Below, in pieces: positions 27,304 through 41,885 of a stretch of 60,631 nucleotides of DNA. A program made the position numbers and the translations under genes. Where the stretch lies: contig NZ_RQYW01000015.1 in NCBI RefSeq assembly GCF_003932895.1, positions 1 to 60,631 on the forward strand. Direction: 5' to 3'. How positions within the stretch are numbered: position 1 is the stretch's first letter; each line of letters opens with the position of its first letter. This DNA comes from Leptotrichia sp. OH3620_COT-345. Its GTDB lineage: Bacteria; Fusobacteriota; Fusobacteriia; Fusobacteriales; Leptotrichiaceae. The notes under the pieces were generated by a model. It had not been told where the DNA came from and ran no database searches. It worked only from the letters and a program-made list of their open reading frames with translations.

Positions 27304-27931
27304 TTATAAACCATTAGTTGACTATATTTTTTATCATAATATGAAGTATAAATCTCCTGAAAAAGCGGGAACAGATAAGGAGAAAATGGAAATTTTCAGG
27401 GAAAAAGGGCAGAAAGCAAGAAAAATATTTACTGAAATTGCTAAGAATTTTGAAGGCAAAATGCAAGGATTTAAATTACAAAAAGTAAGTGGATGGATGA
27501 ACCAGGCACAAATAGCCCGTTCTTATTTCTGGGTGTATTTAAAAAAGGAAAGTGAAAAGCGTGATGAATCAGGTCTAGCATTAAGACTTATAGAAGATAA
27601 AAAAGAGTTTGGAATTTCTCTGGAAGTAAGTTTTCTTGAAAGAGGAATAGGAGAAAATACACTTAAATTTCAAAATAGAGTTTTAGAGATTCCTATTTGC
27701 TCACCTCTTTACTATTATGTACAAATTAACGGAGAAAATTTAAGGATAGCTGGGAATGAAGAAAATCGCCAAAATCTGATAAAAGAAGTTAAAATAGAAA
27801 AAGTAAGAAAAGTTCTTGTCAAATATGACATAGATGAAATAGAAAAATTTCAGACTCATGATGAGCTAAGTGAAGAGTTGTTAAAAGGATATATTCTTTT
27901 GAAACCTTACTATGAAATAACGAAAAGATAA
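27290..27931 (+). CDS. conserved-looking protein of unknown function
   Basis: A 213-residue soluble protein I do not recognise. The first third is rich in Lys and aromatic residues (KPLVDYIFYHNMKYK), the middle has QIARSYFWVYLKKES and SGLALRLIEDKKEFGISLEVSFLERG, which look like beta-strands, and the C-terminus is helical (HDELSEELLKGYILLKPYYE). No signal peptide, no membrane segment, no metal motif. Its start lies inside the end of the merR gene with GGAGAAAAAAAT as ribosome binding site, so it is translationally coupled to the regulator and may act in the same response. Confidence 0.7.
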   Translation: MKKFNYKPLVDYIFYHNMKYKSPEKAGTDKEKMEIFREKGQKARKIFTEIAKNFEGKMQGFKLQKVSGWMNQAQIARSYFWVYLKKESEKRDESGLALRLIEDKKEFGISLEVSFLERGIGENTLKFQNRVLEIPICSPLYYYVQINGENLRIAGNEENRQNLIKEVKIEKVRKVLVKYDIDEIEKFQTHDELSEELLKGYILLKPYYEITKR

Positions 27932-28540
27932 ATTAAATTTTTTTGTAAAGATTTATTATTGCTTTAACATTTAACCTACTGATTATAAAGTTTTTTGATC
28001 CTTCAAAATACTTAATTGTGTTTGAAAAACTTGAAAATCATTTACTCAGATAGAAGATTTTTCGGTCAACATAGTTTCTTTTTTTAGAAAAATTTTGAAT
28101 ATTGGAAGCAGTTTTAAATATTAAATTAAAATAATAAAATACATATGAAATGGAGATTTTTATGTCAAAATATAAAAGTTTCCTTTTTTTTAATTTATAA
28201 TATAAATATAAAATTGAAATTTTAAAAGTTAAAATCCCGACATTCAAATTATTCAACAAAAAAATATGAGAATGAGTATTTAGAAAAATCACTGTCTGAG
28301 TAAAGAAAGTTTGTAATTTTTAGTGTATGAAGTGTTTTTAAATATAAAATAATTTGAGTTGGTAAGATTTTTGTCAAATTTTTTGCAAAAAAGTTTAGAG
28401 AAATTTGCTAGTTTTTCTAAAAAGTTCGAAAAAGAGTTTTGAGTATTTTTTTGTATTGTATATAAAAGTTAATAATCTATTATATATAGATTGTCTAAAC
28501 GAAAATAAAAAAAAATTAAAAAAATAAAGAATTTAAGGTA
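27932..28540. repeat. intergenic stretch with dispersed repeat copy D
   Basis: No gene. About 28010-28372 holds the most complete copy of the dispersed element: a left block TTCAAAATA...GTTTGAAAAA, the block AAAATTTTGAATATTGG, then TATAAAATTGAAATTTTAAAAG, and the right block ATTCAAATTATTC through AAAATAATTTGAGTTGG. The rest to 28540 is AT-rich with weak hairpins such as AATCTAT...ATAGATT at 28472-28490. Confidence 0.55.
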
Positions 28541-28612: not shown

Positions 28613-28762
28613 ATGAATATACTGATTGATTACAATATTTACAATAGATTTAAATTATTAAATTTTGATTTTATATTTAAGTTTTTCCATAATAACATAA
28701 ATAAATTTATTACTTTTTATTATTTTAAAAACCGATATAATTTATACATTAATAGAGAATAA
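28613..28762 (+). CDS. pyrBI leader peptide, 49 codons
   Basis: A small ORF starting at ATG 28613 with GGAG eight bases upstream. The coding sequence is U-rich with many Phe, Tyr, Ile, Asn and Leu codons (for example FDFIFKFF and FITFYYF). Its TAA at 28760-28762 falls inside the 5' arm of the terminator hairpin that starts at 28756. In the enterobacterial pyrBI system a translated, U-rich leader ending near the attenuator lets a ribosome closely following a UTP-starved, paused polymerase block the terminator. The same layout is visible here. The peptide itself probably has no function. The call is inference from architecture; the ORF could be chance in AT-rich DNA. Confidence 0.6.
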   Translation: MNILIDYNIYNRFKLLNFDFIFKFFHNNINKFITFYYFKNRYNLYINRE

Positions 28763-37623: not shown

Positions 37624-37652
37624 TTGAAAAAAATTGAAAAGTTTGATATACT
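37624..37652 (+). promoter_or_regulatory. promoter of the purine operon
   Basis: TTGAAA at 37624-37629, 17-base spacer, TATACT at 37647-37652 with TGA directly upstream. Start would be near 37659, giving a leader of almost 390 bases ahead of purL. Confidence 0.65.
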
Positions 37653-37683
37653 TCTTTTATTAAAAAGTTTGTAAATAATATAT

Positions 37684-37751
37684 TACTTATATATTCTTTG
37701 AATAAGGCAAAGAGTTTCTACAAGCAACCGTGAATTGCTTACTATAAGTGA
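37684..37751 (+). ncRNA. purine riboswitch aptamer, guanine-type
   Basis: The fold is recognisable. P1 arms are ACTTATA (37685-37691) and TATAAGT (37743-37749). P2 is a CTTTG/CAAAG stem with loop AATAAGG. The core GTTTCTAC follows, P3 is AAGCAA/TTGCTT with loop CCGTGAA, and J3/1 is ACTAT. The loop GG and CC pairs can make the loop-loop contact. The C of ACTAT at the specificity position points to guanine or hypoxanthine rather than adenine. Loops differ from the textbook AUAUGG and CCGUAAA, so this is a divergent member. Confidence 0.75.
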
Positions 37752-37775
37752 AGTTTAATAAATGATATCCATACT

Positions 37776-37825
37776 ATCTATTTTATTACTTCATTTTGTA
37801 ATGCAGTTTAAAATAGATTTTTTAT
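37776..37825 (+). terminator. riboswitch terminator (expression platform)
   Basis: ATCTATTTTA (37776-37785) pairs with TAAAATAGAT (37809-37818); an inner TTAC/GTAA extends it; seven T residues end it. The 3' strand of P1 and following bases (GTGAAGTTTAATAAA) can instead pair with TTTATTACTTC in the 5' arm, giving a mutually exclusive antiterminator. Ligand binding should therefore turn the operon off. Confidence 0.75.
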
Positions 37826-37838
37826 TTGGAGGAAATCA

Positions 37839-37985
37839 ATGAAAAGAAAACAGTTTATTACATTACAGACAGTATATTTTAGACAAAAAAAGATGTCTAC
37901 TTTGTTTTATGGACTTTTAACAGGGAAAGTGTGTAAAAAATCAGAAATTCAAAATATCAATAAAATAAGTATGTCAAAAATCTAA
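37839..37985 (+). CDS. 48-codon leader ORF between riboswitch and purL
   Basis: A small ORF with an excellent TTTGGAGGAAATCA site before ATG 37839. The peptide starts MKRKQFITLQTVYFRQKK and is basic, with no signal or membrane segment. Its TAA (37983-37985) lies within the 5' arm of a second terminator that begins at 37978, the same design as the pyrB leader. About 58% of the 50 bases ahead of that hairpin are A by my count. It may be a leader whose translation controls the second terminator, or a small protein; coding is unproven. Confidence 0.55.
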   Translation: MKRKQFITLQTVYFRQKKMSTLFYGLLTGKVCKKSEIQNINKISMSKI

Positions 37986-38010
37986 GTATGTAATCTACTT
38001 AGATTTTTTA
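37978..38010 (+). terminator. second purL leader terminator
   Basis: AAATCTAAGTA (37978-37988) and TACTTAGATTT (37996-38006), a perfect 11-bp stem with a 7-base loop and six T residues. It lies downstream of the riboswitch terminator and 35 bases before purL, so it must be read through for purL to be transcribed. Confidence 0.8.
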
Positions 38011-38045
38011 TTATAAAAACGGATATATAAAATGGAGGAGAAGTA

Positions 38046-41000
38046 ATGGATTGTAGAATTTTTATTGAAAAAAAAGAAGATTTTAGAGTTGAAGCACAAA
38101 ATTTATTTGATGATTTAAAAGAAAACTTGAAAATTGAAAATCTTAAAAATGTAAGAATTTTAAATATTTATGATATATTCGGCATAAGTGAAAATGATTT
38201 GAAAAAAAGTGAAAAAACTGTTTTTTCTGAAATAAATGTCGATAATATATACTATTCTCTTGAAGAAGCATTGGAAGGAAATAATAGGGAAATTAAAAAT
38301 ATTTTGAAAAAAAACTTTTTCGGAACGGAATTTCTTCCCGGTCAGTATGATCAGAGGGCGGATTCTGCTATACAATGTCTAAATTTATTAGTTGATAATA
38401 GAAATAATATAGATATAAAAAGTGGAAAACTTATAATTTTATACGGAAATATTTCAGATGAAGAAATGAATAAAATAAAAAAATATCATGTAAATGAAAT
38501 AGAATCAAGAGAAAAAGATTTAATGATACTTAAACAACCTTCTGAAGAAAAGAATAATGAAAAAGTTCCTGTGTATGATAAATTTATTGAAAAATCACCG
38601 GAACAAATAGAGAATTTCAAAAAAAAATTGGAACTTGCAATGACAACAGATGATTTATTATTTGTTCAAAAATATTTCAAAAATGAAGAAAAAAGGAATC
38701 CTACAGAAACTGAAATAAAAGTCCTTGATACATACTGGTCGGATCATTGCAGACATACAACTTTCGAAACGGTAATAACTGATATAAAAGTGGGAGAAGG
38801 AAAATATAAAAAAATTATAGAAAATACAATAAATGAATATATAAAAAGTAGAGAATATATTCATTCAGACAGAATAGACAAAAAGCCTGTAACATTGATG
38901 GATCTGGCAACTATATCAGGAAAGGAAGGAAGAAAAAATGGAACACTTTCCGATTTAGAAATTTCCGATGAAATAAATGCATGCTCAGTTTATATTGATG
39001 TTCCGATAAATGGTAAAAATCAAAAATGGATATTACAGTTTAAAAATGAAACTCATAATCATCCTACAGAAATAGAACCTTTTGGAGGAGCATCCACATG
39101 TATAGGAGGAGCAATAAGAGATCCTCTTTCAGGCAGGACATTTGTGTATCAGGCTGTAAGGATAACCGGAGCGGGAAATCCTAATGAAAAAGTCGAAGAT
39201 ACAATTCAGGGAAAACTTCCTCAAAAAGTTATCACTCAAAAAGCTGCACACGGTTTTTCTTCTTATGGAAATCAGATAGGTCTTGCAACTACATATGTAA
39301 ACGAAATATATGATGAGGGTTATAAAGCTAAAAGAATGGAACTGGGACTTGTAGTAGGAGCGGCTCCTGCAGAAAATATAATAAGGGAGAAACCTGAAAG
39401 AGGGGATATTGTAGTTTTACTCGGAGGAAGAACGGGAAGAGACGGAATAGGTGGAGCGACAGGTTCTTCAAAAGAACACACTTCGGAATCTTCTGAAAAG
39501 TGCAGTGCTGAAGTGCAAAAAGGGAATGCGGTAATTGAAAGAAAAATGCAAAGACTGTTCAGAAATAAAGATGTTACGAAATTAATAAAAAAATGTAATG
39601 ATTTTGGAGCGGGGGGAGTTTCAGTGGCTATCGGTGAACTTGCTGACGGATTGGAAATTGATTTAAATAAAGTGAGAGTAAAATATGAAGGATTAAATGG
39701 AACCGAACTGGCAATTTCCGAATCTCAAGAAAGAATGGCGGTAGTTATTTCAAAAAAAAATCTGGAAAAATTTATTGAATATGCTCAAAAAGAAAATTTG
39801 GAAGCATATGAAGTCGGTCAAATAACAGATACCGACAGACTTGTAATGAAGTATAATAATGAAGTTATAGTCAATATTTCAAGGGAATTTTTAAATACAA
39901 ACGGTGCAAAATCTTTTATAAGTGCAGAAATAGAAAATTTATACATTCTAGATCTGAAAAGAGAAATAAACGGAAATTCTCTCAAGGAAAAGTTTATAAA
40001 TAATATGAAAGAACTGAATATATGTTCTCAAAGAGGGTTAATGGAAACATTTGATTCTACAATAGGTTCAACTACAGTTTTAATGCCTTATGGAGGAAAA
40101 TATCAGTTAACTCCGTCTGATGTTTCCGTACAGAAAATTTCTGTAGAAAACGGAGAAACATCGTTAGCCTCCATGGTAGGTTACGGTTACAATCCTTTTA
40201 TAGCAAAACAGATACCCTTTCATGGAGGTGCTTTTGCAGTAATTGAATCAATGTCAAGAATAGTGGCTGCAGGAGGAAATTATAAAAACATAAAATTTAC
40301 TTTTCAGGAATATTTTGAAAAACTTGGAAATGATCCTAAAAAATGGGGAAAACCCTTGTCTGCATTATTGGGAGCATTGTATATTCAGAAAAAATTTGGA
40401 CTGGCTTCAATAGGAGGAAAAGATTCCATGAGCGGGACTTTCCATGAAATATCTGTTCCGCCTACGCTAGTTTCTTTTGCAGTAAATACAGTTAATTCTG
40501 AAAATGTTATTTCAAATGAGTTTAAAAAAGAAGGAAGTAGAATATATTTAATAAAAACACCATTAGATGAAAATGATTTACCTCATTTAAAAGAACTGAA
40601 AGATAATTTTGACTTTATTACTGAAAATATAGAGAATAAAAAAATAATATCTGCAAGTGTTGTAAAACATGGTGGAATAGCTGAAGCTCTGGCAAAAATG
40701 TCTTTTGGAAATAAAATAGGAATAAATATAAACATAGATAATATTTTTTCAGAATCAAGCAGCTGTGAAATCTTAATAGATGAGCTGTTTATGCCTTATT
40801 ACGGTACAATCATAATTGAAACTGATGAAAAATTTGACTATAAAAATGCTTTATTAATAGGAAATACCGTGAATAATGAAAAAATAACATTAAATACAAA
40901 GAACGGAATGGAAGAAATTATACTGGAAGAATTAATTTCTGAATGGGAAAAACCTTTGGAAAATATATTCCCTACAAGGAAAAAAATAACTACGAGAAAT

Positions 41001-41885
41001 AAAGTGACTCACTGTAATAAAGCCGAATATAAAAGGCTGAAATGTATAGAACATGAAAATCTTATAAGCAGAATCTCTAATAATTACGCTAAACCGAGAG
41101 TGTTTATCCCCATATTTCCCGGTACAAACTGTGAATATGACTTGGAAAGAGTATTTAATAAAGAAGGGGGGATAGCAAAAACACAAGTATTCAATAATCT
41201 TTCCTACAATAGTATACTCAGCTCCATTGATAATTTTGTTAAAGAAATTGATAATTCTCAAATACTTATGTTTCCCGGGGGGTTCAGTGCGGGAGATGAA
41301 CCTGACGGTTCGGCAAAATTTATTGTTGCAGTTTTGAAAAATGAAAAGATAAAAGAAGCTATTGAGAGATTTTTAAGAAGAGACGGACTGATTTTAGGGA
41401 TATGTAACGGGTTTCAGGCATTAATAAAATCAGGACTTTTACCGTACGGTGAAATAAGAGAATTGGATGAAACTTCTCCGACACTTACGTTTAATGCTAT
41501 AAATAAACATATGTCAAAAATGGTAATGACGAAGGTTATAACGAATAATTCTCCATGGCTTGCAGAAATTAAAGAAAACGAAATACATACAATTCCTCTT
41601 TCACATGGAGAAGGAAGAGTTATAATAAGTGAGGAAGATTACAGAACATTATATATAAATAACCAGATAGCAACAAAATATGTAGATTTTGAAGGAAATC
41701 CGAGTATGGAAATAGAATTTAATCCTAACGGTTCGTATTATGCGATTGAAGGAATGCTGGCATATAAGGGAAGAATATTCGGAAAAATGACACATTCTGA
41801 AAGAACTGGGAAAAATCTTTATAAAAATATAATAGGAAACACAGAGCAGAATATATTTAGAAACGGGATAAAATTTTTTAAATAA
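38046..41885 (+). CDS. purL: phosphoribosylformylglycinamidine synthase, large single-chain form
   Basis: A 1,279-residue single-chain FGAM synthase with synthetase and glutaminase fused. An N-terminal domain is followed by the two AIR-synthase-like halves (HNHPTEIEPFGGASTC.GG, GRTGRDGIGGATGSS), with a second half from about residue 680, and a C-terminal class I amidotransferase domain from about residue 1,015. That domain has PGTNCEYDLE, the nucleophile in LGICNGFQAL and the His of PLSHGEGR. It makes FGAM from FGAR, glutamine and ATP. It starts at ATG behind TGGAGGAGAAGTA, after the two-terminator leader, and heads the purine operon. Confidence 0.96.
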   Translation: MDCRIFIEKKEDFRVEAQNLFDDLKENLKIENLKNVRILNIYDIFGISENDLKKSEKTVFSEINVDNIYYSLEEALEGNNREIKNILKKNFFGTEFLPGQYDQRADSAIQCLNLLVDNRNNIDIKSGKLIILYGNISDEEMNKIKKYHVNEIESREKDLMILKQPSEEKNNEKVPVYDKFIEKSPEQIENFKKKLELAMTTDDLLFVQKYFKNEEKRNPTETEIKVLDTYWSDHCRHTTFETVITDIKVGEGKYKKIIENTINEYIKSREYIHSDRIDKKPVTLMDLATISGKEGRKNGTLSDLEISDEINACSVYIDVPINGKNQKWILQFKNETHNHPTEIEPFGGASTCIGGAIRDPLSGRTFVYQAVRITGAGNPNEKVEDTIQGKLPQKVITQKAAHGFSSYGNQIGLATTYVNEIYDEGYKAKRMELGLVVGAAPAENIIREKPERGDIVVLLGGRTGRDGIGGATGSSKEHTSESSEKCSAEVQKGNAVIERKMQRLFRNKDVTKLIKKCNDFGAGGVSVAIGELADGLEIDLNKVRVKYEGLNGTELAISESQERMAVVISKKNLEKFIEYAQKENLEAYEVGQITDTDRLVMKYNNEVIVNISREFLNTNGAKSFISAEIENLYILDLKREINGNSLKEKFINNMKELNICSQRGLMETFDSTIGSTTVLMPYGGKYQLTPSDVSVQKISVENGETSLASMVGYGYNPFIAKQIPFHGGAFAVIESMSRIVAAGGNYKNIKFTFQEYFEKLGNDPKKWGKPLSALLGALYIQKKFGLASIGGKDSMSGTFHEISVPPTLVSFAVNTVNSENVISNEFKKEGSRIYLIKTPLDENDLPHLKELKDNFDFITENIENKKIISASVVKHGGIAEALAKMSFGNKIGININIDNIFSESSSCEILIDELFMPYYGTIIIETDEKFDYKNALLIGNTVNNEKITLNTKNGMEEIILEELISEWEKPLENIFPTRKKITTRNKVTHCNKAEYKRLKCIEHENLISRISNNYAKPRVFIPIFPGTNCEYDLERVFNKEGGIAKTQVFNNLSYNSILSSIDNFVKEIDNSQILMFPGGFSAGDEPDGSAKFIVAVLKNEKIKEAIERFLRRDGLILGICNGFQALIKSGLLPYGEIRELDETSPTLTFNAINKHMSKMVMTKVITNNSPWLAEIKENEIHTIPLSHGEGRVIISEEDYRTLYINNQIATKYVDFEGNPSMEIEFNPNGSYYAIEGMLAYKGRIFGKMTHSERTGKNLYKNIIGNTEQNIFRNGIKFFK

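Follow-up and report, generated by a model that had tools for sequence, protein, structure and literature searches.

The purL leader of Leptotrichia sp. OH3620_COT-345 raises the question why a purine operon that already stands behind a riboswitch with a terminator of its own carries a short open reading frame (ORF) and a second terminator before its first structural gene. Within the window, i.e., the whole stretch of 60,631 nucleotides that was analysed, this leader sits between a Na/Pi-cotransporter gene and purL, the first gene of purL-E-C-F-M-N-H-D, with the names of what we take to be purE-C-F-M-N-H-D having been read off the ORFs. It consists, in this order, of a promoter, a riboswitch aptamer, a terminator (T1), a GGAGG motif, an ORF of 48 codons and another terminator (T2), as listed in Table 1. 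An earlier note, made without database searches, had claimed this tandem of riboswitch terminator, ORF and second terminator, a near-perfect ribosome binding site, and a layout for which its author knew of no described purine leader. The anatomy was confirmed, the ribosome binding site held in the form of GGAGG six bases before the ATG, and no published description of a tandem of riboswitch, ORF and T2 was found in the open-access literature searched. A pair of T1- and T2-like hairpins with T tails did not occur in dinucleotide shuffles of the region (0/200), and one such hairpin occurred once (1/200). A terminator scan based on G+C content is blind to T1 and T2, because both hairpins are A+U-rich, whereas a fold-based scan detects both. 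The layout is real, and the second terminator is conserved across the order and not a local oddity.

Table 1. Positions of the features of the purL and pyrB leaders in the window.
Feature	Position	Strand	Basis or remark
Promoter TTGAAA-17 bp-TATACT with extended TG	37624-37652	+	Consensus scan, 10/12 matches
Guanine-type purine riboswitch aptamer (type inferred)	37667-37764	+	Rfam RF00167, 69.8 bits, E 2e-12
Predicted antiterminator, exclusive with P1 and T1	37746-37796	+	Folding, -10.0 kcal/mol
Terminator T1, hairpin 37776-37818 and T tail	37776-37826	+	Folding, -11.0 kcal/mol
Shine-Dalgarno sequence GGAGG of the leader ORF	37828-37832	+	Sequence
Leader ORF, 48 codons, peptide MKRKQFITLQTVYFRQKKMSTLFYGLLTGKVCKKSEIQNINKISMSKI	37839-37985	+	Sequence; 39 further leaders share the layout
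Possible RNA polymerase pause element in the ORF	37880-37911	+	Recurs in f1 purL leaders; function inferred
Terminator T2, hairpin 37978-38006 and T tail	37978-38014	+	-9.0 kcal/mol; covariation across 16 leaders
purL, first gene of the operon	38046-41885	+	Pfam
pyrB leader ORF, 49 codons, U-rich	28613-28762	+	Shine-Dalgarno sequence of 4 bases, GGAG
pyrB leader terminator hairpin, holds the ORF stop codon	28756-28791	+	-9.7 kcal/mol, tail TTTTTTAT

The aptamer scored 69.8 bits against an RF00167 cut-off of 37 bits, and it is the single purine riboswitch found in this genome by Rfam search. Its P1 strands lie at 37684-37691 and 37743-37750, and J3/1 reads ACUAU, with a C at the C74 position that is required for guanine; the riboswitch was therefore inferred from its sequence to be of the guanine type, guanine binding itself likewise being an inference. 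According to folding, the antiterminator recruits the 3' strand of P1 and pairs it with the 5' part of T1, which gives an expression platform exclusive with P1 (antiterminator -10.0 vs. T1 -11.0 kcal/mol). The T1 hairpin is followed by the T-tail sequence TTTTTATT and contains almost only A-U pairs, its strength in vivo not being known; it is found at the same place in L006, with a compensatory pair change. The aptamer, the C in J3/1, the mutual exclusivity of P1, antiterminator and terminator, and the association with purine genes are shared with the guanine riboswitches (RF00167) of xpt and purE in Bacillus subtilis, whereas in the window a second, putatively translation-linked attenuator comes after the riboswitch. 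Tandem guanine-PRPP riboswitches (PMC5912903) also bring two inputs, one of them guanine, to bear on purine genes, but there two aptamers share one terminator, while the window has two terminators and no second aptamer was found. An Rfam search at relaxed threshold gave only chance matches for a second aptamer between T1 and purL; no PRPP aptamer was found beside the guanine aptamer, and Rfam gave no other credible family for this leader.

Behind T1, the TAA stop codon of the leader ORF (37983-37985) falls within the 5' arm of T2, a hairpin of 11 bp followed by the tail TTTATTAT. The probability of a stop inside T2 by chance is 0.018 for the window leader alone. A window-wide scan for similar ORFs returned only the purL leader, which is not evidence of uniqueness; the scan missed the pyrB leader because it demanded a Shine-Dalgarno (SD) sequence of 5 bases. 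It might be argued that the leader ORF loads ribosomes which re-initiate at purL, as leader genes near structural genes may feed re-initiation (PMC4833913). Against this very unlikely explanation, 60 nt separate the stop codon from the purL start, a terminator lies between them, and purL carries a strong SD sequence of its own. A trp-like 2:3 antiterminator, formed by UCUACUUUG with the 5' arm of T2, was likewise rejected, as it is not kept in L006 and L013, although this was judged by eye only.

According to the earlier note, absence of the ORF and the second hairpin in close relatives would have refuted its reading. This was checked and does not apply, and the main line of the note's reading is supported: six further genomes of the same family (G021, G003, G002, G018, G004, G019) have ORF and T2 in their riboswitch purL leaders. 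In the following, f1 is the family of the window and f2 another family of the same order, and numbers with g, G and L denote genera, genomes and loci. The leader set comprised 40 leaders of purL, fhs or purE in 15 genus-by-gene groups of the order, with fhs and purE being what we take these genes to be from their translated starts. A guanine riboswitch followed by an SD-led ORF and T2 was found in purL leaders of the f1 genera g1, g3, g4, g5, g7, and g8 and the f2 genera g14 and g17, in fhs leaders of g9, g15, and g23, and in purE leaders of g12, g13, and g16. In the riboswitch leaders of all three genes, T2 stands directly upstream of the structural gene. Additionally, a contig search yielded a Leptotrichiaceae MAG with 92% identity over the end of PurL, the locus being partial. 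The exception within f1 is g9, which features purL with one ordinary terminator and the ORF with T2 in its fhs leader. A single ordinary terminator also characterizes the other guanine riboswitch leaders of the order, i.e., those of permeases, guaA-like and guaB-like genes and some purL genes including that of g9. Automatic screening of 84 riboswitch loci served as a lead only, several true cases having escaped it on account of the pattern used for the aptamer core. Under thin sampling, six purine-riboswitch loci outside the known families of the order (L162-L167) provided one weak match, L165, which was rejected as a tandem case, being an ordinary permease leader on reading. As a separate observation, several hundred bases lie between T2 and purL in L085, L086, L088, L090, L093, and L095, as if by insertion, and the link between leader and purL may differ in these loci.

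In genus g6 (G005-G017), a purine riboswitch is absent in all 13 genomes, while the neighbouring genera retain one, and no other Rfam family was found in the two g6 purL leaders tested. Despite the missing riboswitch, 12 of the 13 genomes retain ORF and T2 of the purL leader, i.e., g6 lost the riboswitch yet kept the second layer. T1, in turn, is present in f1 purL leaders of g1, g4, g7, and probably g3, as well as in purE leaders; the fhs leaders and the purL leaders of g5, g8, g14, and g17 were counted as being without it, with weaker hairpins in L018 and L144 that might be a T1. The full tandem of T1, ORF and T2 behind a guanine riboswitch was also observed in purE leaders of other genera, namely L063, L065, L071, L074, L079, L077, L078, and L057.

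What is kept across these leaders is the reading frame, the SD sequence and the position of the stop codon. The latter overlaps T2 in 36 of the 40 leaders and lies at most 12 nt away in the other four, i.e., 12 nt before the hairpin in L087 and 6-12 nt past it in L097, L098, and L077. Under a null model in which the ORF body was shuffled and T2 was kept, the leaders with the stop inside T2 had probabilities of 0.005-0.10 each, which are not independent, because the leaders share ancestry. The hairpin itself covaries: in 16 leaders, 99.4% of cells were paired, seven of ten pairs had changed on both sides, and the covariation score of 0.50 was not reached by any of 500 shuffles (0.33 ± 0.03). 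Within g6, the genus with only the ORF/T2 layer, pN is about equal to pS in the leader ORF, and therefore translation, not the peptide, is kept. Moreover, leader peptides do not align between most genera, and the stop inside T2 is read in one frame in L157 and in another in L158. Taken together with the g6 result, this means that a ribosome arriving at T2 is retained and not a particular peptide. These data show that selection acts on the frame and on where the stop codon lies, not on the peptide, and that T2 covaries; the translation coupling of the second attenuator, although an inference, is well supported by sequence. The same evidence bears on the explanation that a functional small protein is made from the ORF, which would have a terminator to itself and lie upstream of purL by chance. 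In favour of it are the good SD sequence and a central RQxxxLSTLxY stretch that recurs in f1 purL leaders. Nevertheless, this is very unlikely, considering that pN is about equal to pS, that peptides are unalignable between most genera, that the ORF has no Pfam match, and that the first operon gene varies (purL, fhs, purE) while the layout and the place of the stop codon stay the same; furthermore, the recurring stretch is conserved at the nucleotide level, where it forms a hairpin.

The reading proposed here is that of two attenuators in series. Guanine would close the aptamer, free T1 and stop transcription, whereas without guanine the antiterminator would form and RNA polymerase would continue into the short ORF with its strong ribosome site and its stop codon inside T2. 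A ribosome close behind would cover the 5' arm of T2 as the latter emerges, so that the hairpin is blocked and the operon is read; if the polymerase outruns the ribosome, or if the ORF remains untranslated, T2 would close and transcription would end. Such a translation-coupled attenuator of the pyrBI type in series with a guanine riboswitch is likely, even though neither transcript nor ribosome data exist, and the suppression of T2 by the ribosome is likewise probable, with ribosome occupancy of the ORF and suppression both being inferred. Coupling of transcription and translation is assumed for this order. In Escherichia coli, pyrBI (Roland, 1988, via PMC4824070) likewise features a short leader ORF with a terminator inside near its 3' end, where a ribosome close behind the polymerase blocks termination, and the same logic is proposed for the purL leader. 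Both leaders precede nucleotide-synthesis operons, with a leader gene of 135 bp in E. coli and 147 bp here. However, pyrBI is a pyrimidine operon with a U-rich leader, while the window leader is A-rich and belongs to a purine operon in another phylum, its NTP dependence being inferred; unlike pyrBI, it follows a guanine riboswitch that has a terminator of its own. When a stop codon was moved in E. coli to a site 5 bp ahead of a terminator, termination fell from ~90% to <10%, and uncoupled translation abolished this repression of the terminator by the ribosome (Li et al., PMC4824070). Ribosomes are thought to catch the polymerase within about 100-200 nt (PMC4824070); the leader ORFs of the set measure roughly 75-180 nt, i.e., catching up would be uncertain and regulation therefore possible.

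The position of the stop codon also bears on the explanation that the ORF senses the charging of one tRNA in the style of trp or his leaders. The leader does have a peptide and a terminator, and f1 purL ORFs commonly contain one Gln codon. Still, amino-acid attenuators of the trp/his type feature a run of codons for a single amino acid and a distance of over 20 bp from the stop to the terminator (PMC4824070), and the window leader meets neither property. No common run of control codons exists in the 40 leaders, and with the stop inside the terminator, translating to the end would favour readthrough. Hence, tRNA sensing is very unlikely.

Under the preferred reading of a pyrBI-type attenuator, the second stage would likely respond to the speed of the polymerase and hence to the supply of purine NTPs, in view of the A-rich stretches and a pause-like hairpin in the ORF. 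In the window, this hairpin (UAGACA/UGUCUA, 37880-37899) is followed after 11 nt by U37910|G37911. The f1 purL ORFs share a hairpin (A/G)GACAA/UUGUCU at a near-constant place (ORF nt 42-54), with U|G or U|A after 10-12 nt, and known hairpin-stabilised pauses have a spacing of 10-13 nt (PMC12288461). A pause-like hairpin with the right spacing is limited to f1 purL ORFs. Pausing in these ORFs is possible, as inferred from geometry without any pausing data.

With respect to A-richness, the earlier note had pointed to the bases before the second hairpin and to ATP-dependent pausing if the mechanism mirrors pyrBI. The window ORF indeed has A 0.46 and T 0.30 (A-T +0.16), with A-T +0.30 in its last 60 nt. 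The claim held, but roughly one in ten ordinary coding windows has an A content as high, and A-richness was dropped as a window-only argument; therefore, the claim rests on the contrast between pur and pyr leaders. A leader ORF with its stop in a terminator occurs upstream of pyrB in 23 genomes of the order, i.e., the window and 22 others. The pyr leader ORFs have T 0.46 and A 0.38, whereas the pur leader ORFs have A 0.48 and T 0.33. Paired in the 15 genomes with both, mean A-T was +0.19 for pur vs. -0.085 for pyr (Wilcoxon p = 4e-4), pur exceeding pyr in 13 of them and the order being reversed in G021 and G018. This contrast is the expected look of a pair of gauges for ATP and UTP, but it is not proof. 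The pyrBI analogy is strengthened because of the stop inside the terminator and the U-rich pyr and A-rich pur leaders in the same genomes, while ATP sensing remains an inference. For the purL leaders of f1 as a group, A-T was +0.056 and not above the coding background of +0.08. Purine-NTP sensing by the second stage is plausible, at about even odds, with a weaker case for f1 purL. Ahead of pyrB in the window, a hairpin followed by eight T at 28152-28183 (-11.7 kcal/mol) overlaps an ORF of 12 codons that comes after the gene ending at 27931; it is likely an ordinary terminator.

The leaders without T1 suggest another arrangement, in which the guanine riboswitch gates translation of the leader ORF and this translation decides on T2. 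If this converter also applied to the window, guanine would be the sole input and T1 an added fail-safe. In support of it, the mean cost of opening the SD sequence with a closed aptamer was 1.35 kcal/mol above that of shuffles in the 15 leaders counted as being without T1, vs. -0.4 kcal/mol in T1 leaders (p = 0.0025, ignoring shared ancestry and based on thermodynamic folding only). Freeing the P1 strand lowered the opening cost from 5.0 to 0.2 kcal/mol in L157 and from 4.5 to 1.7 kcal/mol in L151, and in L020 the SD sequence directly follows P1. In the window, however, masking of the SD sequence by the closed aptamer was not seen in folding, the sequence being equally open in both states (3.1 vs. 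2.9 kcal/mol); guanine control is already given by T1, and g6 has ORF and T2 without any riboswitch. For the window, the converter is therefore unlikely and two attenuators in series remain the preferred reading, whereas in the T1-less relatives the riboswitch may gate ORF translation, with T2 converting it to transcription control, as predicted by folding. Accordingly, the two independent layers of the earlier note represent one of two versions. The T1-less version resembles the synthetic tnaC adaptor (Liu, 2012, via PMC4244866), which turns translational into transcriptional control via a leader peptide but is engineered, Rho-dependent and in need of the TnaC peptide. Likewise, B12 riboswitches with uORFs in Mycobacterium tuberculosis (PMC11260477) combine a riboswitch leader with a translated upstream ORF, translation of the window ORF being inferred; they act by termination-reinitiation or possibly in a Rho-linked manner, whereas the window features an intrinsic terminator holding the stop codon.

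A bolder reading, against which the balance still tips slightly, would be that purine synthesis in the whole order is governed by a mirror image of pyrBI that senses ATP. It would act by itself, downstream of a guanine riboswitch terminator, or in the form of a natural converter (the riboswitch gating ORF translation and the ORF deciding on the terminator), and the pyr operons of the same genomes would use a U-rich twin. For pyrimidines in enteric bacteria, attenuation of the pyrBI type is the textbook example. If the reading is true, transcription-translation coupling would be used more widely as a nucleotide gauge, tight coupling would be implied in an order of anaerobes where it has hardly been studied, and a natural model for converting translational into transcriptional control would be at hand.

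Two further observations concern the ORF/T2 stretches of the leader set. The word AGUGUG was found in 13 of the 40 stretches, e.g., in L150, L063, and L071, vs. 1.6 expected from shuffles, and AAGUGU in 15 of the 40 vs. 3.7 expected, with a word of the AGUGUG type at 37928-37933 in the window. This word is unexplained; the modules may have inherited it from a common ancestor, or it may be a binding site. Besides, the leader peptides of purL, fhs and purE are enriched in Lys and Arg compared to ordinary coding windows, which may stem from A-rich codons or may slow the ribosome.
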